Source: Arcobacter sp. CECT 8986 (GTDB lineage Bacteria; Campylobacterota; Campylobacteria; Campylobacterales; Arcobacteraceae). From it: 64,000 bases of DNA. Below are positions 5,823 through 51,253 of this stretch, piece by piece. Each line of letters begins with the position of its first letter. Within the stretch, counting starts at the first letter, position 1. The position numbers and the translations under genes were made by a program. The notes under the pieces were generated by a model. It was not told the DNA's origin. It saw nothing but the letters and a program-made list of their open reading frames with translations, and did no database searches. The stretch lies in assembly GCF_004116725.1 (NCBI RefSeq), contig NZ_PDKG01000003.1:62001-126000 (forward strand), given 5' to 3'.

Positions 5823-5877
5823 AGAAAATCCTTATTTTTATTAAGATTATAACATTATAAAAAAACAATTAATATAA

Positions 5878-6660: not shown

Positions 6661-6674
6661 TTATATACTCCTTT

Positions 6675-7367
6675 TTATTTTTCTACAAACTCTCTAAATT
6701 TTTTTGCACCATCTTTACTTGATGTTACTGTATCTTTTATATTAACAAAGAAAAACTCTATTTTACTTTGTTCGTGTGTTTTCATACTTTTAATATAATC
6801 TAGATTTATTATATATGAACGATGAACTCTAAAAAAGTTAAAACCTTTTAATAACTCATCCATTTGAGAAATCTTTTTTGCATAATATGAAAAGCCATCT
6901 TTTGTTCTTAAGATAACTTCATTTAAATCAGCTTGAACATATACTATATCTTCTGGTTTTAATAAATATGCTTCATCTCCATTTTTAGTCAAAAATTTTA
7001 TTGATTTATTATCTACTGAGTATGAAGTTGCTCTTTTTATACTATTTTGTAATTCATCTTTTGTATATGGTTTTAGTAAATAATCAATTGCACCAACTTT
7101 AAATGCTTTTATAGCAAACTCTTCATATGCAGTTTGGAAGATGATAAAAGCTTTTGAGTTTTTAGAAAATATATCTTGTGCCAAATCCAAGCCATTTATA
7201 TCTGGCATATTAATATCTAGTATATAAATATCAAAACTATTTGATTCATCTAAAGAGTTAAACTCTTCAAGATTTGTAGCTACTTCATAATCATAGTTTA
7301 ATTCATCAAGAAATCTTGATAATCTTTTTAGTGCTAGTTCTTCATCATCCATTATTAATATTTTCAT
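6675..7367 (-). CDS. LytTR-family response regulator
   Basis: A 230-residue regulator with an N-terminal receiver domain (DDEE acidic pocket at 7-10, phosphoacceptor Asp in [11 protein letters not shown] near residue 53, Lys in LLKPYTKDE) and a C-terminal LytTR DNA-binding domain (from about 125; [15 protein letters not shown] is typical). It overlaps the 3' end of the sensor kinase gene by 23 bases, so the pair is co-translated. Targets are unknown; the overlapping desaturase gene upstream is one candidate. Confidence 0.93.
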
Positions 7368-8367
7368 TACATTTTCCTATTGTTATTTTATATGTTGGTT
7401 CTGAGTTATCAACTAATTGTATTTCGCCATTACACAAAATTTCTAATCTCTCTTTTAAATTTGTAAGACCTATTCCAAACTTATCATTGATTATCTCTTT
7501 TCCATCATTTTTTACTAAGATTATTAACTTATCACTTTTTTTTGCTTCAATATAGATATTTAAAGATTTTTTACTTTTAGAAAATCCATGTTTTATAGCA
7601 TTTTCTACTAAAAGTTGTATCGAAAACTTTGGTATTTTATACTCATAAAACTCTTTATTTATATCTATATGTAAAATAATTTTATCAGAAAATCTTACAT
7701 TTTCTAAGTTTACATATCTTTTTAGATTATCAAGTTCATCTTTTAAAGAATTTAAAGCTTTTTCATTCATACTTTGTCTTAGAAATCTTGATAATTCCAT
7801 AAGATTATCTTCTGTTTTGTTTATATCTATATGAACTAACTCAACTAATGAGTTTAAACTATTAAATAAAAAGTGAGGATTTAGTTGTCTTTGAAGTGAT
7901 TTTAATCTACTATCTATTAAAAGTCTTTCACTATACTCTTTTTTATTGTTCATCTTTACAAACTGATATAAAAGTGTTGCAACAAAATATGTCAAAAACC
8001 CTATAAACAAAGCAAAAACAATATAATTTTGCTCAAATTTATCAATCAAATTTATATTAAATATTTTACATAAATAGTAAGTTGTCAATGTTCCTAAAAA
8101 ACCAGATAAATATGAGAATAATATTGCAAGAAATAGCCAATATTTCTTTGATAATTTTGGCAAAATATAGTTATTTAAATATGTGATAAATACCATTGAA
8201 AATATAAATATATCCAAACCTAATAAAAGTCCAAAAAATATAGCATTTACTACATTTTCACCTATTAGATAATAACTATATATAGATAATAAAGTAGAGA
8301 ATAACAATGCAATAATAAAGATAAAAAACCAATCTTTTAATCTTATTTGTAATTCTAAATGTCGCAT
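7345..8367 (-). CDS. LytS-type sensor histidine kinase
   Basis: A 340-residue kinase with about six N-terminal membrane helices and a cytoplasmic His_kinase domain, QLNPHFLFNSLNSLVELVHI, containing the phosphoacceptor His. The ATP-binding part has QLLVENAIKHGFSKS and FGIGLTNLKERLEILC. I choose the ATG at 8367, which has AAAGG seven bases upstream; an upstream in-frame ATG at 8412 lies deeper inside the preceding gene. The gene starts 13 bases before the end of the CrtI-like gene, so all three genes form one tight operon. Confidence 0.9.
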   Translation of the reverse strand: MRHLELQIRLKDWFFIFIIALLFSTLLSIYSYYLIGENVVNAIFFGLLLGLDIFIFSMVFITYLNNYILPKLSKKYWLFLAILFSYLSGFLGTLTTYYLCKIFNINLIDKFEQNYIVFALFIGFLTYFVATLLYQFVKMNNKKEYSERLLIDSRLKSLQRQLNPHFLFNSLNSLVELVHIDINKTEDNLMELSRFLRQSMNEKALNSLKDELDNLKRYVNLENVRFSDKIILHIDINKEFYEYKIPKFSIQLLVENAIKHGFSKSKKSLNIYIEAKKSDKLIILVKNDGKEIINDKFGIGLTNLKERLEILCNGEIQLVDNSEPTYKITIGKCNENINNG

Positions 8368-23621: not shown

Positions 23622-23634
23622 CTCTTATCCTTTA

Positions 23635-24570
23635 CTAATATCTTAATAACTTTTTTAAATTATATTTATTTTTATACTCTATTGTATAAAAAATCACTTC
23701 ATTAAATCTATTTTTACTAATTGATAAAAAATCATCTAATGCAACCTCTAAATCACTAATTTTAGAATTTTCAAATCTTAAAATATCACCTTTATAAATA
23801 TATCTACCTTTGAAATAAAAACTTTTAGTAACTTCATAATAGTTATCTTTTATTAGTTTAAAATTCTTTTTAAAATCTTGTTTTGTTACACCTTCAAATA
23901 TATCAATTCCTCTTTTTTGTCTAAATTGAATTGCTTGAGAATATAAAGGTAAGGCAAGTTTTAATTTCAAAGGATATTTATCAAAATTATAGTGATATTT
24001 TTTGGCTATATTATTATCTAAAATTGAGTTTTTTGTATCAAAATCTCCAACTGTTGACATATTGTAATACATCAATAATCCATAATCAATATCAGGTACA
24101 CCAGTTTTTTGAAAATATTTTATTTGATGCAATCTAATAGTTGCACTTATTTTCTTATTTAAAATTGTTTTTATTTTCTCTAAAAAAGAAAAATATTTTA
24201 CTCTTGTAGAAACTGACCAATCGCAATCAAACTGTATTTCATCATATTTAAAAGGTAAACTCTTTAAATTTTTTGCTACATCATTTACTAACTCATCTAA
24301 AAAAGCTAATTTCATTGCTTTATTTGTAATATAAATAACAGGAATTGATAAATTATCTTTTGGTTTAGTTTTAAAAGTAGTTCTTATAACTTCTAATTTA
24401 TTTGAGTAGTTTATATCTAAAACTTTAATATATAATTTATCATCTTGAGTTTTTAAAGAGTAACTATTTTTCCAATGATAAAAAGAGTATGTTAAATTCT
24501 CTTTATTTGTAAAATTAAAAGTAAAAAAAACAATAATAAGAAAAACAAAGAGTAAAAATATTTTTTTCAT
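23635..24570 (-). CDS. Exported DUF3142-like protein
   Basis: A 311-residue protein with an N-terminal signal anchor (FLLFVFLIIVFFTFNF). The middle has IQFDCDWSVSTRVKYFSFLE and a downstream MYYNMSTVGDFD segment, reminiscent of TIM-barrel proteins of the DUF3142 type that resemble glycoside hydrolases. It lies 13 bases downstream of nothing and upstream of the TPR gene, on the same strand, so the two may be co-transcribed. The family call is tentative. Confidence 0.5.
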   Translation of the reverse strand: MKKIFLLFVFLIIVFFTFNFTNKENLTYSFYHWKNSYSLKTQDDKLYIKVLDINYSNKLEVIRTTFKTKPKDNLSIPVIYITNKAMKLAFLDELVNDVAKNLKSLPFKYDEIQFDCDWSVSTRVKYFSFLEKIKTILNKKISATIRLHQIKYFQKTGVPDIDYGLLMYYNMSTVGDFDTKNSILDNNIAKKYHYNFDKYPLKLKLALPLYSQAIQFRQKRGIDIFEGVTKQDFKKNFKLIKDNYYEVTKSFYFKGRYIYKGDILRFENSKISDLEVALDDFLSISKNRFNEVIFYTIEYKNKYNLKKLLRY

Positions 24571-24674
24571 AAATTTAAATTGAAACCTTTTTTAAATTTA
24601 GAAATTATATAGTATTGATATTAAAAGAAAGTTATTTTGATTATTTTTTGATATAAAATATTATTTTTAGGCCT

Positions 24675-32016: not shown

Positions 32017-32413
32017 GGGGATGATTTGGCTTCGATTAGAGCATTGAGGCTTGATTGCATGTCGGCCTGAGCATGCCGTTACGCGGCTCATTTTTTTTAG
32101 ACGCAAACAATACTAATTACGCTCCAGCTTACGCAAAAGCTGCGTAAGTTTTAAAAACTTATAGACTCCCTTCGGGTTGAGTCTTTGGAGACTCGCACTA
32201 CTGATTCTATCTAAGTAGATTTTCGCGGGTTCACCCTAGATAGATTACTTTAAAAGAGTTGATTTGGCTTTTAAAGGACATTTTAAAATCTTAGCTTTTT
32301 AGTTGCCTTGTGGTTTGAGTTGCTAATAAGTGAAATTTTTCAAGCCTGCTAAGCATGTAGACGTCAAGAGTAGATGTTTTAAGACTCCGGTTCAATCCCG
32401 GACATCTCCACCA
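32017..32413 (+). ncRNA. ssrA: tmRNA (ssrA)
   Basis: The RNA rescues stalled ribosomes by trans-translation. The 5' end ggggatgatttggcttcga pairs with the 3' tRNA-like arm, which has T-arm gttcaatcccg and encoded CCA. The resume frame (32103-32147) encodes ANNTNYAPAYAKAA and stop, close to the Campylobacter tag ANNVKFAPAYAKAA. The last 14 bases serve as attachment site for the integrated element, which rebuilds the gene exactly, so tmRNA should still function. Confidence 0.97.
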
Positions 32414-32420
32414 ATATTAA
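32400..32420 (+). repeat. attL (direct repeat, tmRNA 3' end)
   Basis: The 21 bases start with ggacatctccacca (the tmRNA 3' terminus) followed by atattaa, and are identical to 51233-51253. The flanking bases differ at both sides, which fixes the repeat length. Confidence 0.95.
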
Positions 32421-32521: not shown

Positions 32522-32545
32522 TTTATTACGGTAATCTTTACGGTA
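32522..32545 (+). promoter_or_regulatory. Left arm-type site with two ttacggta copies
   Basis: The 24-bp block beginning tttattacggtaatcttt holds two direct ttacggtaa copies 12 bases apart. The same 24 bases occur at 51147-51170. An inverted copy (taccgtaa) lies at 32568-32575 inside the start of int. The layout fits integrase arm-type binding sites and possible autoregulation. Confidence 0.75.
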
Positions 32546-32562: not shown

Positions 32563-33798
32563 ATGGATACCGTAAAAATGCCAAAAATTGTTAAACCTCT
32601 TACAGATAAAGATATTAAAGCTGCTAAACCTAAAGAAAAACAATATAAATTAAGTGATGGACAAAGCTTATATTTGATTGTAAAACCTAATGGAACTAAA
32701 TTCTTTAGATTTGATTTTAAATTTGAAAATAAAAGAAAATCTATGAGCTTTGGAGTTTACCCAGATATTACTCTTAGTGAAGCAAGAAAAATAAGAGACA
32801 ATACAAAAGAGCTTTTAAAACAAAATATTAATCCTATATTAGAGAAAAATATATCTTTAGAAGATAGTACCAACACTTTTAAAAATATATCTGAAAAATG
32901 GCTTTCTAAAATGAAAAATGAATGGGTTGAGAAAACATACATTAAAGTTGAGAATGTTATTAGGAACCATGCTTATCCATACATAGGTAATAAGCTTATT
33001 GAAGATATTACAAGAACAGATATTTTAAATATTATAGATAGAATGAATACTAAAGGACTTCATGGTTCTGCTGAGAAGATGATGAGCAATTTCAATAGAA
33101 TTTATAAATATGCAGTGACTTATAATTATGTAGAGCATAATATAATTGCGGATATTGACAAAAAAAATATAATCATTTCAACAAGTAATAACCATATGAG
33201 TGCAATTACTCAAGAAGATGAAATAAAAGAGTTACTTGAAGATATCAATAACTTTGAGAACTTATATAAAGCTAGTATTACAACAATAATAGCTTTAAAA
33301 TTGGCTCCTTATGTAGCTTTAAGACCTTATAACTTAAGAGCCTTAGAATGGAATGAAATAAATTTTGAAAAAAAAGTTATAGATATACCAGGTGAAAAAA
33401 TGAAAACTAAAAAAGATTTTATTTTACCTTTATCAAAACAAGCAATTGAAATATTAAAAATGATTGAGCCTTTTTCAGCTCACAAAAGTAAGTATGTATT
33501 CCCCTCACCTGTTTCTAATCTAAAATGTTTAAGTGATGCAACACTAGGACATGCATTAAAAAAACTAGGATATCAAGATAGACATACTACTCATGGATTT
33601 AGAAGTACATTCTCAACAATAGCACATGAAAAAATGAAAGAACATGGATTTAATAGTGATATAATTGAAAGTTGTTTAGCTCATGAAGAAAAAAATAAAA
33701 TCAAAGCTGCATATAATAGAGCTTCAAAAATGAAATATTTTGAAGAGAAAAAAGAATTAATGCAGTGGTGGGCTAATTGGTTGGATTATATAAAATGA
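32563..33798 (+). CDS. int: P4-type tyrosine integrase
   Basis: Catalyses integration and, with an excisionase, excision at ssrA. The 411 residues hold an N-terminal DUF4102-type arm-binding domain (SDGQSLYLIVKPNGTKFFRF, then SMSFGVYPDITLSEAR), a core-binding domain, and a catalytic domain with the first Arg in YVALRPYNLRALEW, HGFRSTF (H-x-x-R), the second His in CLAHEEKNKIKAAYNRA and its Tyr. It lies 150 bases from the tmRNA end. The start could be the ATG at 32563 or 32578; neither has a strong ribosome site. Confidence 0.96.
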   Translation: MDTVKMPKIVKPLTDKDIKAAKPKEKQYKLSDGQSLYLIVKPNGTKFFRFDFKFENKRKSMSFGVYPDITLSEARKIRDNTKELLKQNINPILEKNISLEDSTNTFKNISEKWLSKMKNEWVEKTYIKVENVIRNHAYPYIGNKLIEDITRTDILNIIDRMNTKGLHGSAEKMMSNFNRIYKYAVTYNYVEHNIIADIDKKNIIISTSNNHMSAITQEDEIKELLEDINNFENLYKASITTIIALKLAPYVALRPYNLRALEWNEINFEKKVIDIPGEKMKTKKDFILPLSKQAIEILKMIEPFSAHKSKYVFPSPVSNLKCLSDATLGHALKKLGYQDRHTTHGFRSTFSTIAHEKMKEHGFNSDIIESCLAHEEKNKIKAAYNRASKMKYFEEKKELMQWWANWLDYIK

Positions 33799-33832: not shown

Positions 33833-34546
33833 ATGGGAATAGATTTAAATAAAAGACAAGTAATATACAACAGTAATCATCAAAAAAGAGTAGATACAAG
33901 TATTCATGTAAAAAGTAACTGGAAAAGAAAAAATACTGTACTTACAGCAGCATTATTAAAAAGAAGAAGAACAAAAGATAATTTAGATGGTAATCCATTA
34001 ATATATGCTTTAAAAAATATAAATGGATATACAATTGATAAAAAAAATCTTTCTCCTATAATAAAGAGTGCTTTAAAAAATTTAAATACTGCTCTTAATC
34101 AAAAAGAATATGATTTAATAGTTTGTATACCATCAAGTGGCTTTATAGTCAAAAAACTTGGTCAAAGTGTAAAAAAAAGAATTCCCCAAACTAAAATTTC
34201 AAATTATGTTCTTCAAAAATGTACAAATAAAGATATTATACAATCAATAAATTTATCTTTGATAAGCAATAAAAAACATCTACATGAAGTAAAAGAAGTT
34301 TTAAAGAAATTACAAATAGCACCTGGGAATAAATTTGTCTTAAAAGAAATAAAAGGAAATATCAGAGCTTACTTTAATCCAATTAAAATAAATAATCCTT
34401 ACTTGATTAAAAAGTCTCAAACTATACTACTCTTAGATGATGCACTCTCTTCTGGAACAACTTTATTTTATGCTCAAAAACTTATAAAAGATATTAATCC
34501 AAATGCAAATATTGAAGCAATATGTTTTTTAAGTTCATTACATTAA
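33833..34546 (+). CDS. Phosphoribosyltransferase-fold protein
   Basis: A 237-residue protein whose C-terminal half has a type I phosphoribosyltransferase PRPP loop, TILLLDDALSSGTTL (about 205-219), preceded by YDLIVCIPSSGF, an equivalent of the ComF-type strand. The N-terminal 80 residues are basic and unrecognised. It follows int by 34 bases on the same strand and may be co-transcribed. In the chromosome such proteins salvage bases or act as competence factors (ComF); as element cargo the role is unknown, and a nucleotide-targeting defence function is speculative. Confidence 0.8.
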   Translation: MGIDLNKRQVIYNSNHQKRVDTSIHVKSNWKRKNTVLTAALLKRRRTKDNLDGNPLIYALKNINGYTIDKKNLSPIIKSALKNLNTALNQKEYDLIVCIPSSGFIVKKLGQSVKKRIPQTKISNYVLQKCTNKDIIQSINLSLISNKKHLHEVKEVLKKLQIAPGNKFVLKEIKGNIRAYFNPIKINNPYLIKKSQTILLLDDALSSGTTLFYAQKLIKDINPNANIEAICFLSSLH

Positions 34547-38055: not shown

Positions 38056-39786
38056 CTACAAATCATAATCTTCATTTTGCTTTTTACTTTCAGATTTAAT
38101 CAACTCTCTTAAATCTTTAGCAGCATCCTTATCATTAATATTTAATGATTGTTTTTCATTTTCTTTAGCCACTTGTCTTTTTACTTCATTTATAAATTGT
38201 TCAGTACCTCTAATATGAAGATTATTTAAGTCCCATCCTTTTGCTTTGGCCACCTCTAACATTAATTTGACATTTTCAACTAAATTCTGATTGTTTTTAT
38301 TTGATTTAATTTGATTACCTTGATCAGTAACATGGATATTTTTTCTTTTATTGATGATTTCAATATACCCTTGTTCAATCTTTTTAATATAGTAGTTTTC
38401 TAAATTAATATCAGGAACAATCTTATAAATCTGATAGAATACTTTATCTTGATAAGTTTTCTTTTTTAATGGTACATAAAAATTTATTTTAGGCTCATAA
38501 CTATAAAAATTTATTCTATCTTTAAATACATCTCTATTGCTATTATATTTATAAGCTTTCGTAAAATCTTGATAGGTTAAATTAAGTTTGTTAAAATATA
38601 TAGTATATTTTTCATTGTCTTTTTCAAAAGTAAAACCTACTCTTGATCTTTTACCATTTATAGTTCTTGCTTTAAATTTAACATTTTCATAACCTAACTC
38701 ACTCATTAGTTCTAAAAAGTTTTTATCATTCTTACATAATTTTAGAACTTCATTAACATCAGTTGAAACATGATAGTTTAAACTTAATTTATATTTATCT
38801 TTTTTATCAACCTTTTTTTCAATTTCAACTTTTGTATCATTAAAATCAAAATCTAGTTTTTTAAATATATTTCCTCTTTTTTCAAGCTCTCTTATAATAG
38901 GATTATTAAATCGATAGTTATATTCAATATATGCTCTAATTAATTTATTAGATCTATCTTTTATTAGTGGTTTTATTAACTCCTCATCTCCAGTATTTAT
39001 GATATCTAAGTATTTAATTTGTTCCTGGTTTAAATACAGTGGAAAATGTTCAGTTCTTAAATTTTTACCTTCATAGTGAAAATCAAGATTTTGTCTTATA
39101 AGTCTTTGTTGAAAATCTGTCATACCTTTTATGTAATATTGAATATTTTCAGTTTTTTTATATTGAGAAATAAAATCTTCAATATATTTATTAACTGTTC
39201 CATTTACAATTGAAGCTTTAAAATAATTATCATCAACTCTTTTTGTAAACCAAGTAAATTTAGTAGCCTTTTGTTTTAAAATTTTATCTTTTTCAGTATT
39301 TACATTTTCATCAAAATTAAATACTAGGTTATGCTTAGCTGCAACTTCACTAATCATTCTTCTTAAATTTAAATATCCTATTCCAAGTTTTGTACTTTTC
39401 CCATATTTATTTTTCAATTTTGCAGATGATAATAAATGAAAATGAGGTTCTACTTCATAGTTTTTTGAATTGATTGAATCACTATCTGTATTGTGATAAG
39501 CAGTTAATACTTGTGATAAATCTAAACTCATTTTTCTTTTAGGTCTATTTTTACCTTGCGATTCTTCAAAGTGATATTCATAATTAATTAAATCTTTAAA
39601 AAATAATTTCATGACCTTATCTATATCTTTTTGATCTTTACAATTGTGATTTATGATTAGTTGGCTTTTATCAATTGAAAAAGTAAAATGTACATTTTTA
39701 TCATCTGATAAATTAAATGTATCAGGTAAGTTATTACTTACAATAGCTGCATGATCTAAAATATGGCTCTCAAGATTCCAACTCAC
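38056..39786 (-). CDS. HUH relaxase/replication-type endonuclease with LPD7-like C-terminus
   Basis: A 576-residue protein. The HUH metal motif appears as VEPHFHLLSSA (about 110-120), followed by LGIGYLNLRRMISEVAAKHN with a candidate nucleophilic Tyr. The C-terminal part (LMLEVAKAKGWDLNNLHIRGTEQFINEV) resembles the LPD7 domain of plasmid relaxases. It starts at GTG with AGGAG six bases upstream. Divergent from the TraK-like gene across a hairpin-bearing gap, which fits a mobilization region. It could instead be a rolling-circle replication initiator. Confidence 0.72.
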   Translation of the reverse strand: MSWNLESHILDHAAIVSNNLPDTFNLSDDKNVHFTFSIDKSQLIINHNCKDQKDIDKVMKLFFKDLINYEYHFEESQGKNRPKRKMSLDLSQVLTAYHNTDSDSINSKNYEVEPHFHLLSSAKLKNKYGKSTKLGIGYLNLRRMISEVAAKHNLVFNFDENVNTEKDKILKQKATKFTWFTKRVDDNYFKASIVNGTVNKYIEDFISQYKKTENIQYYIKGMTDFQQRLIRQNLDFHYEGKNLRTEHFPLYLNQEQIKYLDIINTGDEELIKPLIKDRSNKLIRAYIEYNYRFNNPIIRELEKRGNIFKKLDFDFNDTKVEIEKKVDKKDKYKLSLNYHVSTDVNEVLKLCKNDKNFLELMSELGYENVKFKARTINGKRSRVGFTFEKDNEKYTIYFNKLNLTYQDFTKAYKYNSNRDVFKDRINFYSYEPKINFYVPLKKKTYQDKVFYQIYKIVPDINLENYYIKKIEQGYIEIINKRKNIHVTDQGNQIKSNKNNQNLVENVKLMLEVAKAKGWDLNNLHIRGTEQFINEVKRQVAKENEKQSLNINDKDAAKDLRELIKSESKKQNEDYDL

Positions 39787-39801
39787 GAAATTCTCCTAAA
39801 A

Positions 39802-39867
39802 GTGTGCGAAGCTCACTAAAATATAAAGTATTTTATCAATTTTAAGCCCTCAAAGTCAAGTGAGGGC
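39802..39867. other. Candidate origin of transfer (oriT)
   Basis: In the divergent gap between the relaxase-like and TraK-like genes, GCCCTCA (39846-39852) pairs perfectly with TGAGGGC (39861-39867), an unusually GC-rich 7-bp stem in AT-rich DNA. A second imperfect hairpin gtgtgc/gctcac lies at 39802-39816. Hairpins next to a nic site are typical of oriT, but no nic sequence can be assigned. Confidence 0.5.
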
Positions 39868-40029
39868 AATGGCTCATTTATATTTTATTTTAATATAATA
39901 TATTTATAGATACTAAACCAATAATAATACAATAATATTTTGTCTATTTAACATTAATATAAATAATAATACGATACTATTTGATAATAAAACAATATAT
40001 AATAAATACTAACCATAAAAAGGATATTT

Positions 40030-40572: not shown

Positions 40573-41367
40573 ATGAGTGAAAAAGATTTAATCAACTATG
40601 CAAAAACCTTATTAAACAATACTCTTACACTTGATGAAAAAACTATAACTGAACTTGCATATAAAGAAATAAAATTTAAGAAAGTACTTTTAGAAGATGT
40701 CTTTCTTAGAAACAAAAATAAAGACAAGAAGGCATTTTTTATATTTGGTGGATATGGTTCAGGTAAAAAAGAGTTTGCAAGTGCATTAAATGAACTTTAT
40801 CAAATTGATTTTATAGAGCATACAGAAATAAAAAAGTATTGCAAATACTATAATGGTATAAATTCACATTTATTTGAAAAAGCAAGTTTAGAAGGTGTTA
40901 ATATTCTTATGAATACTGTTTTAAATAAAAGTTACTCTTTTATTTTAGATGATAAATTTTTTGAGTTTATAGATAGTGCTTTAGAAAAGAATTATGAGAT
41001 TGAAATAAATTTTGTATATAGACCTTTAAATATCGTAATAAAAAGTACAGAAATCCTTGAAAATACTATTTATAGTGAGTTCATAAGCTCTATAAATGCT
41101 GTAAATAAAATAAAAGAAAAATACTCAAATGTAAGATTGAATTTTTATGATCTTCATAATGATTTAGTTTTTAAAGATATTAACAGTTTAGATAAAGTTA
41201 TGCAAAATGATATTAAATTTGCAAAAGATTTTTTATTAAAAAATTGTGATTTGGCTTTTAGAAAGCTGCAAGAGGTAATAAATACAGATTATCCAATTAA
41301 AAAAATAAAGTTATCTGATACTATGAAAAAGAACTTAGATAAGTTAGGAATAAAATACAATGATTAA
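40573..41367 (+). CDS. Zeta-toxin-like P-loop protein with degenerate Walker A
   Basis: A 264-residue protein with a kinase-like N-terminal half: FFIFGGYGSGKKEFASALNEL (Walker A position, residues 51-60) and later NKSYSFILDDKFFEF, as in zeta toxins. The usual Ser/Thr after GK is replaced by Lys, so normal Mg-ATP binding is doubtful. Zeta toxins phosphorylate UDP-GlcNAc and need an epsilon antitoxin; none is evident. The next two genes overlap it, forming an operon. AAGGA precedes the ATG. Confidence 0.55.
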   Translation: MSEKDLINYAKTLLNNTLTLDEKTITELAYKEIKFKKVLLEDVFLRNKNKDKKAFFIFGGYGSGKKEFASALNELYQIDFIEHTEIKKYCKYYNGINSHLFEKASLEGVNILMNTVLNKSYSFILDDKFFEFIDSALEKNYEIEINFVYRPLNIVIKSTEILENTIYSEFISSINAVNKIKEKYSNVRLNFYDLHNDLVFKDINSLDKVMQNDIKFAKDFLLKNCDLAFRKLQEVINTDYPIKKIKLSDTMKKNLDKLGIKYND

Positions 41368-41665
41368 ACATTTTGGAATTAAAATTATCATGAATGAAGA
41401 AAAAATTATAAATGATAATAAATATGATTTGGATTTAGTATATAAAGAGATAGATAGACTTGCAGAATTTGCAGGAATGAAAAAGATAGATAAATATAAC
41501 TATATTTCTAAAAATGATTCACCCAGTGAATTAGGTTGTTTTGCATTTACTAATCTTGAAGAGCATAAGTGGTTTATAGAAAATATAAAAGAGTGGTTAT
41601 GGTACACCCCCAAAGATGGCATCTTAGATATTATTGAATTTATAAAAAATAGGAGCTATAAATGA
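41360..41665 (+). CDS. Small unknown protein in the zeta-like operon
   Basis: A 101-residue acidic-to-neutral protein, not recognised, with a central LYKEIDRLAEFAGMKK helix and a KEWLWYTPKDG segment near the C-terminus. Its ATG overlaps the stop of the zeta-like gene, and its own stop overlaps the start of the phosphoesterase gene, so the three are translated together. AGGA lies upstream of the ATG at 41360; a second ATG at 41393 is a weaker choice. It could be an antitoxin, but there is no motif to prove it. Confidence 0.65.
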   Translation: MIKHFGIKIIMNEEKIINDNKYDLDLVYKEIDRLAEFAGMKKIDKYNYISKNDSPSELGCFAFTNLEEHKWFIENIKEWLWYTPKDGILDIIEFIKNRSYK

Positions 41666-42501
41666 AAATAGATATATTAAGTGATTTACATATAGATTTT
41701 TATTTTAATCCTAAAGAAAAAATAGAAGATCAACAAATAAAAAAACTATATGATCCTATTATTAAAAAAGATAATAGAGAAATTGGTGATGTCCTTATTG
41801 TTGCAGGAGATATAGGACATTATAATCATCAAAATATAAAAGTATTAAAATACTTTAAAGAACACTATTATAAGCATATAATCTGTATTCTTGGAAATCA
41901 TGATTATTATTTAGTTGGTAAAGATTCAAAGCTTCAATTTAAAGATTCATTTGCAAGAGCTGAAGAAATGAGATTAAGAATTAATAGAGAAGAAAATCTA
42001 TATTGTCTTGATGGAAATATAATAGAAATAGAGGGAATTAAATTTGGGGGTTGTGATTCTTGGTATAACGATGGTTATTTAAAAAGAAGATTTCCAAATG
42101 GAGATTTTCCAGTTAAATCAACTAATCAAATGTGGCATAACTGTATGAATGATTCTAACTTTTTATTTGGTATAGAAAATTATAATGATATATTTGAAAT
42201 TGAGAAACCTAAAATTGAAGCAGTTTATCAAAATTGTGATGTAATGATAACTCATATAAATCCATCATGTAAAGATGAAAATATGAGTGAAAGATATCAA
42301 AATAATCAAACAAATACATTCTTTACTTTTGAGGGAGAAAAATATTTAAAAAATGGTTCTATGAAATATTGGATATTTGGACATACTCATGAAGAGCTTG
42401 AGTATAAAGAACATAATGTTAAATGTATTTGTAATCCATTTGGATACCCTAGTGAAAGTGGATTTGGTGTATGGGTTAATATTAGACAAATAGAGGTTTA
42501 A
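41662..42501 (+). CDS. Calcineurin-like metallophosphoesterase
   Basis: A 279-residue enzyme with the dinuclear-metal motifs in order: SDLHIDFYF (D-x-H), GDVLIVAGDIGHY (GDxG-like), ILGNHDYY (GNHD), MITHINPSC and IFGHTHEEL (GHxH). Substrates in this superfamily include phosphodiesters, cyclic nucleotides, Ap4A and nucleic acids; this one cannot be assigned. The start overlaps the previous stop (ATGA) and has AGGAG. Last gene of the unit, followed by a terminator-like hairpin. Confidence 0.9.
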   Translation: MKIDILSDLHIDFYFNPKEKIEDQQIKKLYDPIIKKDNREIGDVLIVAGDIGHYNHQNIKVLKYFKEHYYKHIICILGNHDYYLVGKDSKLQFKDSFARAEEMRLRINREENLYCLDGNIIEIEGIKFGGCDSWYNDGYLKRRFPNGDFPVKSTNQMWHNCMNDSNFLFGIENYNDIFEIEKPKIEAVYQNCDVMITHINPSCKDENMSERYQNNQTNTFFTFEGEKYLKNGSMKYWIFGHTHEELEYKEHNVKCICNPFGYPSESGFGVWVNIRQIEV

Positions 42502-43048: not shown

Positions 43049-43222
43049 TTATTTGGTTTTTAATTTCATAACTGTTTGTTGATTTTTAGAGATATAATCT
43101 TCTATGAATTTTCTAATCTCTTTTGATGCATCGCTATTATTTACTTTACAAATTTCTTTAAAAAGTTTATAGTGTTCTTCATCTAAAGTTAAACTTGTTT
43201 TTTTCAAAGTTCTTTTAAACAT
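43049..43222 (-). CDS. Small CopG-like (ribbon-helix-helix-like) protein
   Basis: A 57-residue basic protein: TSLTLDEEHYKLFKEICKVNNSDASKEIRKFIEDYI fits a strand followed by two helices, as in CopG/Arc-type DNA-binding proteins. I choose the ATG at 43222, which overlaps the stop of the upstream SHOCT gene by eight bases; a longer frame reaching 43270 lies mostly inside that gene. It may regulate the element. Confidence 0.6.
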   Translation of the reverse strand: MFKRTLKKTSLTLDEEHYKLFKEICKVNNSDASKEIRKFIEDYISKNQQTVMKLKTK

Positions 43223-43634
43223 TAAGAAACTCTCTTTTTTTATTTTCATACTCTTCTGGAGTAATTGCACCTTTCTCTTTCAGATCATACCAATAATTCA
43301 AATCATGCTTTTTATCAAAATTATTTGAAGTACTATAATATTTTTCATATATTTCTTTAGCCACATTATCATAAATAGATACATTATTCTTCTTTCTATA
43401 ATTTCTAACTCGCCATTCATACCACAATCCAGGAATAAAAAGAGCTAAAAATAAAATTAAATTGTCAAGCTCATAATTTCCAGTAATGACTAAACCTAAT
43501 TTTTGAGTATTAAAAAATCTTATCACTCCTACAAATATCGCTAAAAATATGAACAATTGAATATATTTACCAATTCTCACCGAAATATGATCTACAAAAA
43601 CGCCATGTTTTTTTTCTACATCTTTTAAAGTCAT
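43215..43634 (-). CDS. Membrane protein with SHOCT-like C-terminus
   Basis: A 139-residue protein with two membrane helices (about 25-45 and 60-80), a cytoplasmic region and a C-terminal short domain LNYWYDLKEKGAITPEEYENKKREFL, matching the SHOCT pattern (L..L...G.IT..Ey...K...L). SHOCT domains are found at the ends of many bacterial proteins, with no fixed function. Overlaps the RHH-like gene downstream. Confidence 0.75.
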   Translation of the reverse strand: MTLKDVEKKHGVFVDHISVRIGKYIQLFIFLAIFVGVIRFFNTQKLGLVITGNYELDNLILFLALFIPGLWYEWRVRNYRKKNNVSIYDNVAKEIYEKYYSTSNNFDKKHDLNYWYDLKEKGAITPEEYENKKREFLNV

Positions 43635-43722: not shown

Positions 43723-46221
43723 TTAAATACGATTACCCCAAGCTGAACTCTCATTTTTCATTGATTCAATAGAATCATCTAAAGCTCTACTTCCTTGTAC
43801 TTCTATAACTTCAAATAAAGTATTGTGAAGTGATATTATCAATTTATAAATTATTACAATACTAAAAACAGCAACTGCTATCTCTATAAAACCATCAAAA
43901 AAATAGATTCTCATTTTATCAATCCAACCAAAAATGAAATTATTTTGTTGTAAACTATTATTTTCCAACATTCCAATAATAATCTTCTTCCCAAAAACAT
44001 CACCAATAGTATGAATTAAAGAACTTGCAGTAATTGCTAACCAAACTGATAAAACAAATATAGGAAGCTCTAGCATTGTTGCAAAGATTTTCATTGTAAA
44101 TCTTGAAATAGCTTGAATATTCTCTCTTGCAAACATAATAGGCATCATAAATAAACTTGCAAAATGAAAACTAAATATTTTAATCATGATGACTACGAAT
44201 CTTAATAATCCAATAATAACAACTCCCAGAATAGGAGTTATTTCAAGCATAGTTTCAGCAACTTGATAAGCAAGTGCCAAACCAACTAAGCCCTTTGCAG
44301 CTTCTGCTACAATGATTCCTGCAGCTGCACCAATTAAACCAGTAAACCAAGAACCTATTCCTCCACCTGCAATACTTCCTGAAGTCGTGCCAAAAGCCAT
44401 ACCAATTTTTTTTGCGTTATCAACTCCAATGTTATATATAGTTCCTGCTCCTGGAACAAACATGTAAGGTATTGAACTCATTATCATGTGAGTACCCCAT
44501 GAATCTTCTTTAACATCTTCATTTAACTTTTCTAATACTTCATTTCTGTTAGTTTTATATAGTCCACCTATATATTCTGTTTGCATTTTAGTAACTGGAA
44601 GTCCTAAAACTGAAAGATACCCCCAGTCTCTATAGAGTTCATATTGGAATTTAATTAAACCTTCTAGCATTGGGATTTTATTCCCTGCGTTAGCTCCTTG
44701 ATTATTTAAATCATAAAACATTTCTTCATGGTCTTTTTCTTTTTGCGTAAAGTTTAAGTGATTATAATAGTTTTTTCCACACGAACTTAATGAATAAACG
44801 GGATAGTAGTTGTCAAGTGGATTATTAGCATTAACTTTATTTAGAACACTTGTATTATAAGAACTGCTACTTCTAACTTCTCCATCTTTTACTGAATAGT
44901 AAAGTGATGATGTGCTTCCACCTATTCTTGAATTAACAAATGCCCATTTCTCACTTATAGGAAATGGTTGATTAGGATCTTTTGAATATTGATACTTTCC
45001 GTTACCATCTTTCAAACCTGGAATATTAAAAATATTCTCATTACAAATATCTTGAATGTTATCTGTAAAATCAGTTAATTTCTTAGCTTGTTCAAATCCT
45101 GCTGAAGTTTGAATAATTTGGTCTTTTGTACCGACACCTGCTTTATCAATAATTGATTTTATTTCATTATCTAAAATTACCTTAGTTGCTTTATCCGCCC
45201 AAGAGCTAAACAAATTATATCCGTCTTTTTCAAATTCTTGATATTTTGATTTCATTAAATCATACTCTTGTACAACTTCCCCATATTGATTAGTGATCTG
45301 TTCTTTAAAGCTTGTAGGGAAAAAAAGTAAAACACCAAGTATCAAACCAGCTGTATAAGGAGAAAATTTTTCATGATTTTGTTTATCTTCTGCTTTTGAT
45401 GATACATGAGATAAGAACTTGCTCCCTAATCCCCAAACACCAAAGAAACCAACTAGCAAAATTAAATAAGCCATTGATATATCAGATAACCCAGTATAGA
45501 CACTAAAAAGATTTTCTGCGTCAGTAAGAATATACTCTCTGTTATCAATAAAATCATTAGAATTTTCATCATAATAACTTGAAGCAAAGTTATCTTTTAA
45601 TTGAAGCTTATTGGTTGCTGCTGTTGCTTCATAATCAATAATATCTGTATCTGTTAAAATAGCAGCTGTTAATAGTTGTGGTATTGTTAAATACTCTTTA
45701 TTAGCTGCGTATCGAGTTGAATTATAAATTGTTTCGATACTATCTTGCAAAGGTTTAAACTGTTGTTCTACAACACTTATTAACCCCTCATTCTCTTCTT
45801 CTGCTTTTTTCAAATCAAGTTTAAAATGCTTTTGTAAATTTGGATAGTGTGTATCAAATAACCCAACTGGATTATATAAATCGCCTTTTTTAGCAACCAT
45901 ACAAGTTACTAATCCTGCTTTTGCGTCAATATCGTAAATTGTAGCAGTCCATTCATCGCCGATAAATGAACAATTAATACTATTCATAATATTTTGTTTG
46001 GTGATATTCTCTGGAATCTCTCTAGTTAATTCAGCTTCATTAGTAATAATACCTCTTTTTACAAGAGCTTCATTTGTAAACTTAGATAAGTTATCTTGTT
46101 TGTACTTTTCCATATTACCATTTTTTAAATCTTCAATTGCAACTTTTGGATTAATTTCAGTAAATGCAAATAGACTATTTGCAAATAGAAATGTTGCTAA
46201 TAATATTTTAAAGACCTGCAT
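43723..46221 (-). CDS. TraG-N/DotA-like polytopic conjugation protein
   Basis: An 832-residue protein with a cleavable signal peptide (FKILLATFLFANSLFAF), a periplasmic stretch, two membrane helices near residues 250-310, a large Cys-containing periplasmic loop, then several membrane helices from about 625 to 805 and a short C-terminus. This is the layout of TraG N-terminal domain, DotA/TraY and related T4SS inner-membrane proteins, with no ATPase motif. It ends an operon of ParA, coiled-coil and small membrane proteins. Family assignment by eye is not decisive. Confidence 0.6.
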   Translation of the reverse strand: MQVFKILLATFLFANSLFAFTEINPKVAIEDLKNGNMEKYKQDNLSKFTNEALVKRGIITNEAELTREIPENITKQNIMNSINCSFIGDEWTATIYDIDAKAGLVTCMVAKKGDLYNPVGLFDTHYPNLQKHFKLDLKKAEEENEGLISVVEQQFKPLQDSIETIYNSTRYAANKEYLTIPQLLTAAILTDTDIIDYEATAATNKLQLKDNFASSYYDENSNDFIDNREYILTDAENLFSVYTGLSDISMAYLILLVGFFGVWGLGSKFLSHVSSKAEDKQNHEKFSPYTAGLILGVLLFFPTSFKEQITNQYGEVVQEYDLMKSKYQEFEKDGYNLFSSWADKATKVILDNEIKSIIDKAGVGTKDQIIQTSAGFEQAKKLTDFTDNIQDICNENIFNIPGLKDGNGKYQYSKDPNQPFPISEKWAFVNSRIGGSTSSLYYSVKDGEVRSSSSYNTSVLNKVNANNPLDNYYPVYSLSSCGKNYYNHLNFTQKEKDHEEMFYDLNNQGANAGNKIPMLEGLIKFQYELYRDWGYLSVLGLPVTKMQTEYIGGLYKTNRNEVLEKLNEDVKEDSWGTHMIMSSIPYMFVPGAGTIYNIGVDNAKKIGMAFGTTSGSIAGGGIGSWFTGLIGAAAGIIVAEAAKGLVGLALAYQVAETMLEITPILGVVIIGLLRFVVIMIKIFSFHFASLFMMPIMFARENIQAISRFTMKIFATMLELPIFVLSVWLAITASSLIHTIGDVFGKKIIIGMLENNSLQQNNFIFGWIDKMRIYFFDGFIEIAVAVFSIVIIYKLIISLHNTLFEVIEVQGSRALDDSIESMKNESSAWGNRI

Positions 46222-46840
46222 ATCTTCTCCTTTTATTTTTTCTTACAAAATAATCCAGGATTAACATAAGAGCTATGAAAATAATTGAATAAGAAATCAT
46301 GAAAATATTAAAATCATATAGGAATCTTATGTAAGCTTCTTTTGATGGTTGATTATTGTAATAATCCATAAAAGCCGATATTAAAATATCTTCCAAAAAC
46401 AGATATAAGAAACAATATAGAGCTAAATATATAAGAGTTCTAAAGAACCCGTGCATATTTCTAAGTCTCCATTTCTCTAATCTATTTAGCTTAATAAAAT
46501 CTTGTTTTGATTTATATTCTTCAAGATATTTTTCAACATTGAAATTAGAAGAATAAAGAGCTTCATAAGCAGCAACACCAACAATAAAAACAATTGATAA
46601 CCATTTAACAAATAGGCCACAAAATAATAATAAACTTTGTGCGAAGACTGGAATTGAATCGTATGATCTAATATCTATTATTTGCCCTGCTTTCTCAATA
46701 ACAAAAACAAAAGATAAAACCAATAACATATAAAACCCATATCTAACCCATTTACTAACACTTCTAAGCATATAATATATGAAGCATGACTTATCGAATG
46801 TTGTTAGCCATGTAATAGCTAATCTCTCTGTAAAATTCAT
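46208..46840 (-). CDS. Four-helix inner-membrane protein of the T4SS-like operon
   Basis: A 210-residue protein with about four hydrophobic segments (around 35-52, 65-90, 130-150 and 175-195) and a cytoplasmic basic tail (RKNKRRRYAGL). The ATG at 46840 has GGGGG seven bases upstream and overlaps the previous stop as ATGA. Its own stop overlaps the start of the TraG-N-like gene by 14 bases. No family recognised. Confidence 0.7.
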   Translation of the reverse strand: MNFTERLAITWLTTFDKSCFIYYMLRSVSKWVRYGFYMLLVLSFVFVIEKAGQIIDIRSYDSIPVFAQSLLLFCGLFVKWLSIVFIVGVAAYEALYSSNFNVEKYLEEYKSKQDFIKLNRLEKWRLRNMHGFFRTLIYLALYCFLYLFLEDILISAFMDYYNNQPSKEAYIRFLYDFNIFMISYSIIFIALMLILDYFVRKNKRRRYAGL

Positions 46841-47310
46841 AATTTCCCCCAAGAATAAGTTTTTTGTTTTTCTTTGATATTTTCTAATAATACATAAGCT
46901 TCACTCTTTACAGCTTCATATCTTGTTTTATTCTTTTCCAGGTACTCAATCCAATAGTTAATATTTCTATCAATATTTTTATCTCTAAAATCAATAGGCT
47001 TATCAATTTCTAAAATTGGTAGATTAGGATACATTGCAAGAGTTCTCTCATATCTCTTTTGAGATTCTTTTGTTGCTGCTATTTGTTCAACTTTTTGTTG
47101 CTTCAATCTCTCAAGAACTTCTAAACCATTTTCATAATTAAGTACAAACTCAATCTTTTTAATGTTCTCTCCTGGTGTTGCTTCAAAACTTTGAAAAACT
47201 CTCAAGCTAGATAAATCTTTAAAATTATCAAAACCCATAAAACCAAGTACAAAAACTAAAGCTACAATAGGCAACCACATATTTATATTTTTAATTGTTT
47301 TTGTTTTCAT
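46837..47310 (-). CDS. Single-helix periplasmic coiled-coil protein
   Basis: A 157-residue protein with an N-terminal membrane anchor (WLPIVALVFVLGFMGF) and a periplasmic part rich in charged helix (LERLKQQKVEQIAATKESQKRYERTL). The layout resembles small pseudopilus or T4SS accessory proteins; none can be named. It overlaps both neighbours in the operon. Confidence 0.7.
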   Translation of the reverse strand: MKTKTIKNINMWLPIVALVFVLGFMGFDNFKDLSSLRVFQSFEATPGENIKKIEFVLNYENGLEVLERLKQQKVEQIAATKESQKRYERTLAMYPNLPILEIDKPIDFRDKNIDRNINYWIEYLEKNKTRYEAVKSEAYVLLENIKEKQKTYSWGKL

Positions 47311-47584
47311 TTCGAACTCCTAGTTTTAGTTTACGAATCTGTAAATATAATAAGGGTAGTTTTTCAATTAGTGCGTTAATTTTTTCTAACTCTTCTTCTT
47401 TTTCAAATGTATCTTTAATTTGCGTAAAAAGTGTTAGTAGTTTTTCTGCGTTTACTCCAACTGCGTATGGTGTGTTTTTATTAGCAAGAATATTTGCAAC
47501 CTTTTTTATATTAGAATTTAAAGTTTCTAATTCCTCATTTATAGCTTGTTTTACAAGCTTAGAATTATTAATACTCATAACCAT
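47291..47584 (-). CDS. Small helical protein of the T4SS-like operon
   Basis: A 97-residue, mostly helical cytoplasmic protein without membrane segments or known motifs. The ATG at 47584 has GGAG six bases upstream. It starts 10 bases after the coiled-coil protein gene ends and overlaps the anchored protein gene. Confidence 0.65.
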   Translation of the reverse strand: MVMSINNSKLVKQAINEELETLNSNIKKVANILANKNTPYAVGVNAEKLLTLFTQIKDTFEKEEELEKINALIEKLPLLYLQIRKLKLGVRNENKNN

Positions 47585-47594
47585 TTTAAACTCC

Positions 47595-48323
47595 TTATTT
47601 AAAAAAATAAAAAAATAAAGATGCTATTGCACCACCACCTGTAAAACAAAATAAAGATACAGCTATTATATATTTACTATTGATACTATCTTCATATTTT
47701 TCAGCAGTATCAATAAATTGTGAGAGTGTTTTAGTTGCTTTCTCAGCATTAGTATTAGCAGTTTTAATTGATTGTAAATCAATTTCTGCAAATTCACTTT
47801 TAATTGATTTATTGACATCATCAATTTCAGCTTTTAAACTTTCAGCTAATTCTGTCCTAAATTTATTGATTTCATCTAGCACTTTGTTGTAGATTTCATC
47901 GGTTCGCAAATCAAGTGAATTTTCAAAAATTTTTATTTTTTCTTCAATTTTTTCATTAAAATCTTTAATTACTTCATTAGTTATTTTAAAATCTGATTTA
48001 ATTTCTTCAAGCTCTTTAAATCTTTCCTGGTGTGCTTCATCAATTTTAGTTTCATTTTCTTCAACTTTTTCTTGTTGAGTTTCTAATTTTTTTGTAACAC
48101 GTTCGGCTTTATCCAGATATAATTGAAGTAACTTAATTTTATTATTTAATATTTGTTGTGCTCCATTTAATTGACTTATCAAACCCTCTTTTACTTTTCC
48201 ATCTGGCATATTTTGATCAATTAAACTACTTAAAATTTGAGTATTGACAACTGTCATCTCTTTAATTAATTTTTTAATATCAGTTGTATCAACAACCGAT
48301 ATTTTATTTTCATCAGCACTCAT
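47595..48323 (-). CDS. Tail-anchored coiled-coil protein
   Basis: A 242-residue protein with a long central coiled coil (about 60-205) and a C-terminal hydrophobic helix (YIIAVSLFCFTGGGAIASLFFYFFK) that would insert it in the membrane. Its start overlaps the ParA stop (ATGA). With ParA upstream, it may be the membrane partner that tethers or positions a complex; this is inference. Confidence 0.7.
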   Translation of the reverse strand: MSADENKISVVDTTDIKKLIKEMTVVNTQILSSLIDQNMPDGKVKEGLISQLNGAQQILNNKIKLLQLYLDKAERVTKKLETQQEKVEENETKIDEAHQERFKELEEIKSDFKITNEVIKDFNEKIEEKIKIFENSLDLRTDEIYNKVLDEINKFRTELAESLKAEIDDVNKSIKSEFAEIDLQSIKTANTNAEKATKTLSQFIDTAEKYEDSINSKYIIAVSLFCFTGGGAIASLFFYFFK

Positions 48324-49141
48324 CTTTTCACCTCAAAATTAATCTTTTTGAAGAAATCTATAAAATCATAAGAAATATCATAGATTCTCATTGCTTCATC
48401 AATTGCATTTTCATTTTCACTATTAAGTGCTTCTAACCTATATTGAATCCAATTATTAACGATATATTCAGCATTGATGTAGAAATCTAGTGTTGATTGT
48501 TTAGTTTCATTAATGCTATTGCCTAATAGAGAGTGAATATCGTCATAAACTATCCATTCATCTTTAACATATTTTTCAATTTCTGCAAACCTACTTTTAA
48601 TCTTGAATTTTGGGTTTCCAAAAAAAGCTTGAAATTCCTCATTTACATTATTAACCACCTTGTTATAGACTAATGTAGATTTGCAACCAAATAGGGAGTG
48701 AATTAGTTCTAGCGTTGATTTAGTGGATTGATAAATAGCTGTGTCACGATTAGTAGGCACTATAAAGTTAAGATTGAATATCTCATCAAGTCTCATTTTA
48801 CTTATGTGTTGTAATAATTGTTTAGTTTTATCTCCTCCACCACCTATGTCTAATATCTCTACTGTATTTGAATTTGCAAAAGTACGTTGAATTTGCACAA
48901 TTGCATCCTTATATTCAGACACATCATATTTTTTATAGCTTATTTTTTCACTACTCCAAGTGTTATGAGCAGCATTGTCATCAATTTCAACGATATTGAA
49001 CTGTAAGTTCCCTTTTAATTTTTCATCAGCTGTTTTTCTATATATAATTACAGGCATGATATTTTGTGCTGCTGTAGTCTTCCCAACTCCGCCTTTTTCA
49101 GCGGTCGATATGTATAATTCTTTTTTTTGTAATTCTTTCAT
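48320..49141 (-). CDS. ParA/MinD-family ATPase
   Basis: A 273-residue ATPase with deviant Walker A TAEKGGVGKTTAAQNIMP at the N-terminus and a later LNFIVPTNRDTAIYQSTKSTLELI segment, as in ParA/VirC1 proteins. The Walker B equivalent is VEILDIGGGGDKT. No ParB gene or centromere array is evident. I use the ATG at 49141, which has AAGGA seven bases upstream; the frame is open to 49174. It is the first gene of the six-gene membrane operon, suggesting positional control of the transfer apparatus or relaxosome. Confidence 0.85.
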   Translation of the reverse strand: MKELQKKELYISTAEKGGVGKTTAAQNIMPVIIYRKTADEKLKGNLQFNIVEIDDNAAHNTWSSEKISYKKYDVSEYKDAIVQIQRTFANSNTVEILDIGGGGDKTKQLLQHISKMRLDEIFNLNFIVPTNRDTAIYQSTKSTLELIHSLFGCKSTLVYNKVVNNVNEEFQAFFGNPKFKIKSRFAEIEKYVKDEWIVYDDIHSLLGNSINETKQSTLDFYINAEYIVNNWIQYRLEALNSENENAIDEAMRIYDISYDFIDFFKKINFEVKR

Positions 49142-49159: not shown

Positions 49160-49229
49160 AAACTCTGAAACCAAGATTTCTTTACTAAGGCCACAAAGCA
49201 GAGTTTAAACCGTACGCAGTAGGTTTAAA
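49160..49229 (-). promoter_or_regulatory. Double-hairpin leader upstream of parA
   Basis: AAACTCTG (49160-49167) pairs with CAGAGTTT (49199-49206), and TTTAAACC (49204-49211) pairs with GGTTTAAA (49222-49229). The arms overlap at 49204-49206, so the two hairpins are mutually exclusive, as in attenuators or antisense-RNA targets. The segment up to 49262 is GC-richer than its surroundings. Confidence 0.5.
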
Positions 49230-49262: not shown

Positions 49263-49796
49263 CTAACCAGTTACTCTTGGCTTATTAATATAAGAACGCG
49301 GCTTCTTTTTCTTTTCTTCTTGAACTTCATACATCATTTGAAAATAATCTAAATTTGATGGCTCTGTAACTATGTTATTATATGTACTGCTTTTCAGGTC
49401 GTCCTGAAATGGTACCCCGTTAGATACGGGATGCCCTTTTGGTACCTCGTCAACTTTATATATTTTTTCAAATTGGTTCAAAATTTCATTTTTATAATTT
49501 TGATCTATAAATTCACTATCAAAGATCCAGATTGTTTTAAATTTACTATTTTCATCTAGAATTTGAAATCTAAATAAATAATTATGTAAAACAAGCTCTT
49601 TACAAGCTGCTTTAATTGCTTTTTCTCCATCTGTACTCTTATCTGTTAATGTCTTTAAACAAATCTCAAAATTATCACTATAACACTCAAGTATTGCTCC
49701 TAATCCTTTTGCTTTAAGTGATATAATAGGATTAAATAATAATCTCTTATGCACCTGTGCGTAATCTTTTTCTTTTTTGCGTAATTTTATTTGCAT
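49263..49796 (-). CDS. Plasmid replication initiator-like winged-helix protein
   Basis: A 177-residue protein. The N-terminal 100 residues (AQVHKRLLFNPIISLKAKGLGAIL, LTDKSTDGEKAIKAACKELVLHNYLFRF) match the winged-helix domain at the start of many plasmid and phage replication proteins. The C-terminal part is shorter and ends in a basic EEKKKKPRSYINK. In an integrated element it may support transient circular replication after excision. No iteron array is obvious nearby. Confidence 0.7.
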   Translation of the reverse strand: MQIKLRKKEKDYAQVHKRLLFNPIISLKAKGLGAILECYSDNFEICLKTLTDKSTDGEKAIKAACKELVLHNYLFRFQILDENSKFKTIWIFDSEFIDQNYKNEILNQFEKIYKVDEVPKGHPVSNGVPFQDDLKSSTYNNIVTEPSNLDYFQMMYEVQEEKKKKPRSYINKPRVTG

Positions 49797-49943: not shown

Positions 49944-50168
49944 TTAACTTACTTTTTCTAATTCTTTTTGTTTTAATAATTTTTGGTGTACATAATCTTC
50001 TCCTTTTTCAATATATTCTTGAATTTCACTCCATCTCCAAAATGCTGAACCACCAAATTTATAAACCGATGGAAATTTCAATTCTTTCATTTTGCTATAA
50101 ATTGAAGCTGTTGATATAGGAACAAATTCTTTTACATCTTTAAGTCTTAATAATTTTTCTTCTTTCAT
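49944..50168 (-). CDS. AlpA-like excisionase/regulator
   Basis: A 74-residue helix-turn-helix protein: LLRLKDVKEFVPISTASIY, KFPSVYKFGGSAFWRWSEIQEYIEKG is the AlpA pattern. AlpA controls excision of P4-like elements in E. coli prophages. Paired with the P4-type integrase at the other end it is the likely recombination directionality factor. It is divergent from the regulator gene at 50331. Confidence 0.88.
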   Translation of the reverse strand: MKEEKLLRLKDVKEFVPISTASIYSKMKELKFPSVYKFGGSAFWRWSEIQEYIEKGEDYVHQKLLKQKELEKVS

Positions 50169-51146: not shown

Positions 51147-51170
51147 TTTATTACGGTAATCTTTACGGTA
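51147..51170 (+). promoter_or_regulatory. Right arm-type site with two ttacggta copies
   Basis: Identical to the 24 bases at 32522-32545, in the same orientation, 62 bases from attR. Two ttacggta cores lie 12 bases apart. This supports integrase (or excisionase) binding on both arms. Confidence 0.75.
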
Positions 51171-51232: not shown

Positions 51233-51253
51233 GGACATCTCCACCAATATTAA
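51233..51253 (+). repeat. attR (direct repeat copy)
   Basis: Exact copy of 32400-32420, beginning ggacatctccacca. On excision, recombination with attL would leave a single copy as the ssrA 3' end followed by the DNA at 51254. Confidence 0.95.

Follow-up and report, generated by a model that had tools for sequence, protein, structure and literature searches.

Within the stretch of Arcobacter sp. CECT 8986 analysed here (64,000 nucleotides, positions 62,001 to 126,000 of contig NZ_PDKG01000003.1; hereafter the window, whose numbering is used throughout) lies an integrative element of 18,833 bp, measured repeat to repeat. The element holds an operon which begins with a ParA-type ATPase and ends with a polytopic membrane protein of 832 amino acids (aa), and this island probably moves by inserting a channel component of its own into the machine of another element. 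In full, the favoured reading, which is believed somewhat more than it is doubted, is of a mobilizable element that would supply its own VirB6/DotA-class channel subunit to a helper type IV secretion system (T4SS), with ParA positioning the substrate. SGI1 is the textbook island that swaps a subunit into a helper's mating pore. The original prediction of an SGI1-like use of a helper is retained as the best explanation for a motor-less integrated island with a T4SS-type membrane protein.

All six predicted co-directional genes are present at 43723-49141 on the minus strand. They are listed here from the promoter-proximal end, with the gene conserved directly downstream (TM, transmembrane segment; ORF, open reading frame):

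48320..49141, minus strand: ParA-type ATPase, 273 aa (alignment); alternative upstream TTG start at 49174
47595..48323, minus strand: tail-anchored coiled-coil protein, 242 aa, one TM at residues 219-237 (ORF, hydropathy)
47291..47584, minus strand: helical protein, 97 aa (ORF)
46837..47310, minus strand: N-anchored coiled-coil protein, 157 aa, one N-terminal TM (ORF, hydropathy)
46208..46852, minus strand: four-TM protein, 214 aa (ORF, hydropathy)
43723..46221, minus strand: polytopic protein, 832 aa, candidate DotA/TraY-type (VirB6-class) inner-membrane channel (profile-profile comparison, hydropathy, context)
43215..43634, minus strand: membrane protein with a SHOCT tail, 139 aa, conserved directly downstream of the operon

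The last of these may be a seventh operon member. The six genes had been described as joined by start/stop overlaps, which holds for four of the five junctions (4, 20, 16, and 14 nt), but a 10-nt gap separates the 97-aa and 242-aa genes.

The final protein had been predicted to have the layout of TraG-N/DotA inner-membrane proteins, and only the DotA side of this is supported, by a remote profile similarity. None of 25 family members has a TraG_N match in Pfam, and comparison with a small alignment of 3 TraG sequences found no similarity (hhalign P 0.53). The relationship found is with DotA/TraY instead. In a profile-profile comparison with seven plasmid DotA/TraY proteins the family scored 44.8 (P 3.6e-4), while controls reached at most 32.3 (60 block shuffles), 30.9 (60 local shuffles), and 28.0 (reversed alignments). 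The aligned region is the C-terminal TM bundle (residues 658-815 with TraY 534-678). An enlarged hhalign comparison of 50 family members with 11 TraY proteins scored 51.3 (P 6.1e-5, probability 65%; maximum of 50 shuffles 31.7). Aligned singly with the family profile, most TraY proteins also fall best into this C-terminal register, but none is significant alone, only the profile-profile match being so. Weaker collinear segments are a PT motif after the second TM and a GW motif. By hydropathy the protein has a signal/TM, TMs near residues 244-303, and about five TMs from 620 on. Together with a structural model whose TM region is of low confidence, this fits the DotA/TraY topology of a signal/TM, TMs, a large periplasmic domain, and a C-terminal TM bundle. 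AlphaFold gave a mean predicted confidence (pLDDT) of 46 with 9 sequences and 72 overall with 25, much of the TM bundle being low, and Foldseek with the model found no match in PDB or BFVD. There was no Pfam or NCBIfam match for any of the 25 members, and no close homologue in PLSDB plasmids or viral contigs. From its sequence the protein is assigned, with moderate confidence, to the DotA/TraY type (VirB6 class) as a remote relative. The broader prediction of a T4SS-type inner-membrane protein agrees with the profile similarity and with the distant homologues in VirB4-bearing T4SSs that are described below. DotA is a VirB6-class protein that builds the central pentameric protochannel (PMC12857230).

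The gene order ParA, coiled coil, small helical, (157-aa), four-TM, 832-aa recurs in other Arcobacteraceae genomes, where copies of the last protein are 50-70% identical. Its ratio of nonsynonymous to synonymous substitution rates (dN/dS) of about 0.13-0.2 indicates purifying selection in elements without a motor. Because the order recurs and the last protein is under such selection, the arrangement is not due to chance. The set is nevertheless variable: the 157-aa gene is missing from loci L016 and L017, L013 has no recognisable ParA, and L018 and L019 carry a single 228-aa TM coiled coil replacing the small genes. The Arcobacteraceae copies L013-L019 and three loci of the VirD4 type (L062-L064) have the 214-aa four-TM protein beside their 832-aa homologue. 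Between element types the small operon proteins could not be matched, since they evolve too fast. Pfam, PHROGs, NCBIfam, and PADLOC returned nothing meaningful for the operon proteins beyond ParA-like motifs. Matches of the operon coiled coil to phage tail tape measure proteins were dismissed as coiled-coil artefacts.

VirB4 is the most conserved T4SS motor. As predicted, the element contains neither VirB4 nor VirD4: Pfam searches of its larger ORFs found none, and searches of the whole genome (PF03135, PF19044, PF10412, PF02534, and aligned Campylobacter VirB4s) placed none there either. The absence of VirB4 is defined by hidden Markov models (HMMs), which an extremely diverged VirB4 could escape. 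Lacking both ATPases, the element does not qualify as an integrative and conjugative element (ICE). The operon is also not a constant companion of its own motors, as none of the eight Arcobacteraceae copies (at least 50% identity) has either gene nearby. Elsewhere in the window genome there is one P-type T4SS cluster, on another contig (C2 365000-392000, loci L100 and L102; VirB4 at C2:382069, VirD4 at C2:371763), while C17 carries another VirD4-like ORF. This VirB/VirD4 cluster is the sole candidate helper T4SS found in the genome. An integrase homologue lies a few kb past it.

The boundaries of the element and the genes toward its ends are as follows:

32017..32413, plus strand: transfer-messenger RNA (tmRNA) gene, the integration site (ARAGORN; Rfam RF00023)
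32400..32420, plus strand: attL, 21-bp direct repeat GGACATCTCCACCAATATTAA, overlapping the tmRNA 3' end (repeat search)
51233..51253, plus strand: attR, 21-bp repeat identical to attL (repeat search)
32522..32545, plus strand: 24-bp repeat TTTATTACGGTAATCTTTACGGTA within the left end (repeat search); second copy at 51147-51170
32563..33798, plus strand: tyrosine integrase adjoining attL (Pfam Phage_integrase 9.5e-22, Arm-DNA-bind_3 7.7e-23)
49944..50168, minus strand: AlpA-type regulator/excisionase (Pfam Phage_AlpA 1.3e-9)
49263..49796, minus strand: replication-initiator/DnaD-like protein, 177 aa, upstream of ParA (PHROG 1.3e-9; 96% identical in L014)

The operon lies inside an 18.8-kb integrative element because the 21-bp repeat of the tmRNA end recurs at 51233-51253 and the integrase starts 143 bp inward of the left repeat. 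The tmRNA was the sole match of an Rfam search. Identical copies of the 24-bp repeat stand about 100 bp inside both ends, and its sequence also adjoins the tmRNA insertion in a genome of another genus (G083; L023:13996). It is likely to be an arm site for the integrase or the excisionase (AlpA). A related island adjoins the tmRNA gene of G083 as well, with a second G083 copy elsewhere in that genome. Two related elements (L013, the first G083 copy, and L014) occupy different sites on one chromosome. Further copies adjoin integrases at other sites, one of them beside tRNA-Leu/tRNA-Ala. Carrying an integrase and att repeats and no complete mating-pair-formation system of its own, the locus is best explained as an integrative mobilizable element (IME). 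A decaying remnant of a larger conjugative element whose motors were lost would be consistent with the homologues known in complete T4SS loci and with truncated copies in some genomes (L066, L067). It is improbable, as the ORFs, att sites, and integrase are intact, dN/dS is 0.13-0.2, and the order is conserved in several insertions at different sites.

Two further features bear on mobilization:

38056..39786, minus strand: LPD7-domain protein, 576 aa, relaxase candidate (Pfam LPD7 1.9e-11)
39799..39886, no strand assigned: conserved non-coding block resembling an origin of transfer (oriT), three inverted repeats, upstream of the LPD7 gene (comparison between elements)

The LPD7 protein has a strictly conserved EVEPHFHLL (HxH) motif, and its counterparts in four sister copies share 85-86% and 60% identity with it (85-86% for L013 and L014 of G083). 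On a plasmid, an LPD7-domain protein adjoins mobC. The block of about 85 bp is nearly invariant between elements, while the adjoining spacer has no remaining similarity. By direct reading both arms of its third stem differ between elements (GCCCTCA/TGAGGGC in the window, GCCCTAC/GTAGGGC in genome G007); automated pair counting scored no compensatory changes, owing to gap placement. The gene and the block upstream look like a relaxase gene and its oriT, although the block may alternatively be a leader-RNA hairpin.

The wider distribution was surveyed in 397 Campylobacterota genomes, one per species; the phylum-wide scans scored few candidates per genome, and PF03135 and PF19044 were run on subsets. 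A sensitive search found homologues of the 832-aa protein in 49 genomes. Full-length Campylobacter-type VirB4 occurs in 15, all of which also encode a homologue, 13 of them on the same contig (hypergeometric 2.8e-15, kinship ignored). Neighbours in these loci include a VirD4 closest to R64 TrbC. This co-occurrence, together with the VirD4 neighbours, shows that distant family members are subunits of complete T4SSs, a membership which applies to those homologues and not to the window copy. One T4SS type in Campylobacterota (L069-L076, L104, L110, L112, L117) has a recognisable VirB4 and VirD4 and no Pfam match for its other tested subunits.

The remaining 34 of the 49 carrier genomes lack a cognate Campylobacter-type VirB4. 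Their loci are mostly of two kinds: TrwC relaxase, TrwB-like VirD4, ParA, and the homologue; or, as in the window, LPD7 protein, ParA, and the homologue. L015-L017 have ParA and the operon with no relaxase recognised. A second LPD7 and ParA lineage in Arcobacteraceae (L128-L130) has an LPD7 protein of 546 aa and a very distant DotA/TraY-like homologue of 960 aa. In the protein tree (a quick tree with long branches) the context types are intermixed, and supported branches force at least 6 changes for the VirB4 type. The homologue was therefore repeatedly gained by, or kept in, motor-less elements.

The frequent absence of the cognate VirB4, which PF03135 also failed to find in most of those carriers tested, and the recurrent partnership with ParA could instead point to an apparatus for transfer or contact that is complete in itself, with ParA and/or VirD4 as its power source. 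Elements of the window type also lack VirD4, the element showed neither pilus nor outer-membrane components, and homologues in complete systems work beside VirB4, of which a diverged form could be missed; such an apparatus is as improbable as the decaying remnant. Its boldest form, in which a ParA and DotA/TraY-like complex (with VirD4 in sister elements) is a minimal VirB4-less DNA-transfer apparatus widespread in Campylobacterota, is the least credible proposal considered here.

The ParA protein belongs to the ParA/MinD ATPases by its deviant Walker A motif (KGGVGKTT, present in the alignment), and its profile matches the Soj and MipZ structures. These matches, an operon headed by ParA and a tail-anchored coiled coil, and the replication-initiator-like gene upstream would suit a membrane-anchored, ParA-driven positioning or partition of the excised element, with the polytopic protein serving as an anchor and taking no part in DNA transfer. 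This is unlikely, given the homologues in VirB4 and VirD4 loci and the DotA/TraY similarity; no ParB-like gene or parS array was identified.

Under the favoured reading of a helper-dependent mobilizable element, the integrase would excise the element from the tmRNA gene, and the LPD7/HxH protein would probably nick the conserved block at 39799-39886. The operon would produce a DotA/TraY-type inner-membrane channel subunit together with small anchored helical proteins and the four-TM protein as its partner. Where the cell also contains a helper T4SS, these products may replace or supplement the VirB6/DotA subunit of the helper, and the altered pore may prefer element DNA or escape helper exclusion, as SGI1 TraG does. 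ParA and its tail-anchored coiled-coil partner would bring the relaxosome to the pore, by analogy with VirC1 and gonococcal ParA.

Several observations weigh against this scheme. The resemblance to DotA/TraY is a distant match between profiles (the hhalign probability of 65% above) with no HMM-library or fold match, and the LPD7 protein had no match among solved relaxase structures. The VirB4 of the window genome is P-type, on another contig, and not of a homologous type. VirB4 was undetected in all six other Arcobacteraceae genomes that carry 832-aa homologues at 50% identity or more, and the search of carrier genomes yielded no helper.

The lack of VirB4 in most carrier genomes also fits a different role, in which a decoy DotA/TraY-type subunit and its partners poison or occlude the T4SSs of competing conjugative elements and so protect the niche of the element rather than promote its transfer. 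Proteins of the TraY/TraG class have links to exclusion (on IncI-type plasmids ExcA is annotated next to traY), SGI1 TraG variants defeat entry exclusion (PMC5389848), and sister elements have defence-like genes. A poison could be truncated, while the 832-aa protein retains its full length and every TM and periplasmic region, and its linkage to transfer genes (relaxase, ParA, often VirD4) is consistent. Such a decoy is an unlikely explanation, if a slightly less unlikely one than partition.

Other cargo includes, just inside the left end (33833-34546), a phosphoribosyltransferase-domain protein resembling ShosT (PADLOC 1.2e-9), a defence/toxin-antitoxin component. At 40573-41367 there is a Zeta-toxin/kinase-like P-loop protein (Pfam Zeta_toxin 2e-5), kept in one sister element, and at 41662-42501 a metallophosphoesterase (67-88% identity in sister elements) that matches PADLOC candidate PDC-S10 (2.2e-15). 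The sister element of genome G030 (L017 1887-3794) has a defence-like protein with TIR and SLOG-cluster2 domains near the operon.

If the helper-dependent reading is true, the SGI1 strategy extends phylum-wide to a different channel protein (DotA/TraY, a VirB6-class protochannel) with ParA as its regular partner; in 34 of the 397 genomes sampled the channel protein occurs without a cognate VirB4. One class of mobilizable elements would then be overlooked by annotation pipelines, because the channel gene has no HMM match. It would also offer a tractable route to learning how substrate choice and exclusion are determined by VirB6-class subunits.

Among known systems, the DotA/TraY family (TraY of IncI plasmid R64, DotA of Dot/Icm) shares with the 832-aa protein an N-terminal signal, TMs, a large periplasmic region, and a C-terminal multi-TM bundle. 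In contrast, the aligned part of the window protein is only about 13-14% identical, Pfam/NCBIfam models fall short of detecting the protein, and the rest of an I-type T4SS does not accompany it. T4SS ParA proteins (VirC1, gonococcal ParA) are encoded with relaxase and transfer genes, as is the window ParA with its candidate ones, and gonococcal ParA is membrane-associated and interacts there with the relaxase (PMC8716806). The window ParA is of another subgroup; it is coupled to a coiled coil with a tail anchor and to a DotA/TraY-like gene, with no ParB seen.

The Pseudomonas aeruginosa plasmid pPA033 (NZ_CP089239, L146; 40.7 kb), typed as mobilizable and as lacking a mating-pair-formation system, carries at 4418-8199 and 22454-24667 a DotA/TraY gene, annotated as such, beside a ParA gene, and an LPD7-domain NikB-like protein. 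ORF inspection and BLAST/HMM searches found no VirB4-size ATPase on it. It resembles the window element in this absence and in combining a DotA/TraY-type gene with ParA and an LPD7-domain protein. It differs as a Pseudomonadota plasmid with a bona fide TraY homologue (24% to R64 TraY), another gene order, and no four-TM operon. Close relatives of its DotA/TraY are found on about 20 Pseudomonas, Aeromonas, and enterobacterial plasmids. SGI1 is likewise an integrated mobilizable island without a full T4SS, and the mating-pore subunits that it encodes have relatives in conjugative plasmids; its TraG and TraH replace helper subunits and raise SGI1 transfer, and TraG overcomes helper entry exclusion (PMC5389848). 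SGI1 differs in its F-type TraG/H/N and known IncC helper, whereas the window element has a DotA/TraY-like subunit with ParA and a four-TM protein alongside, and a tmRNA site.

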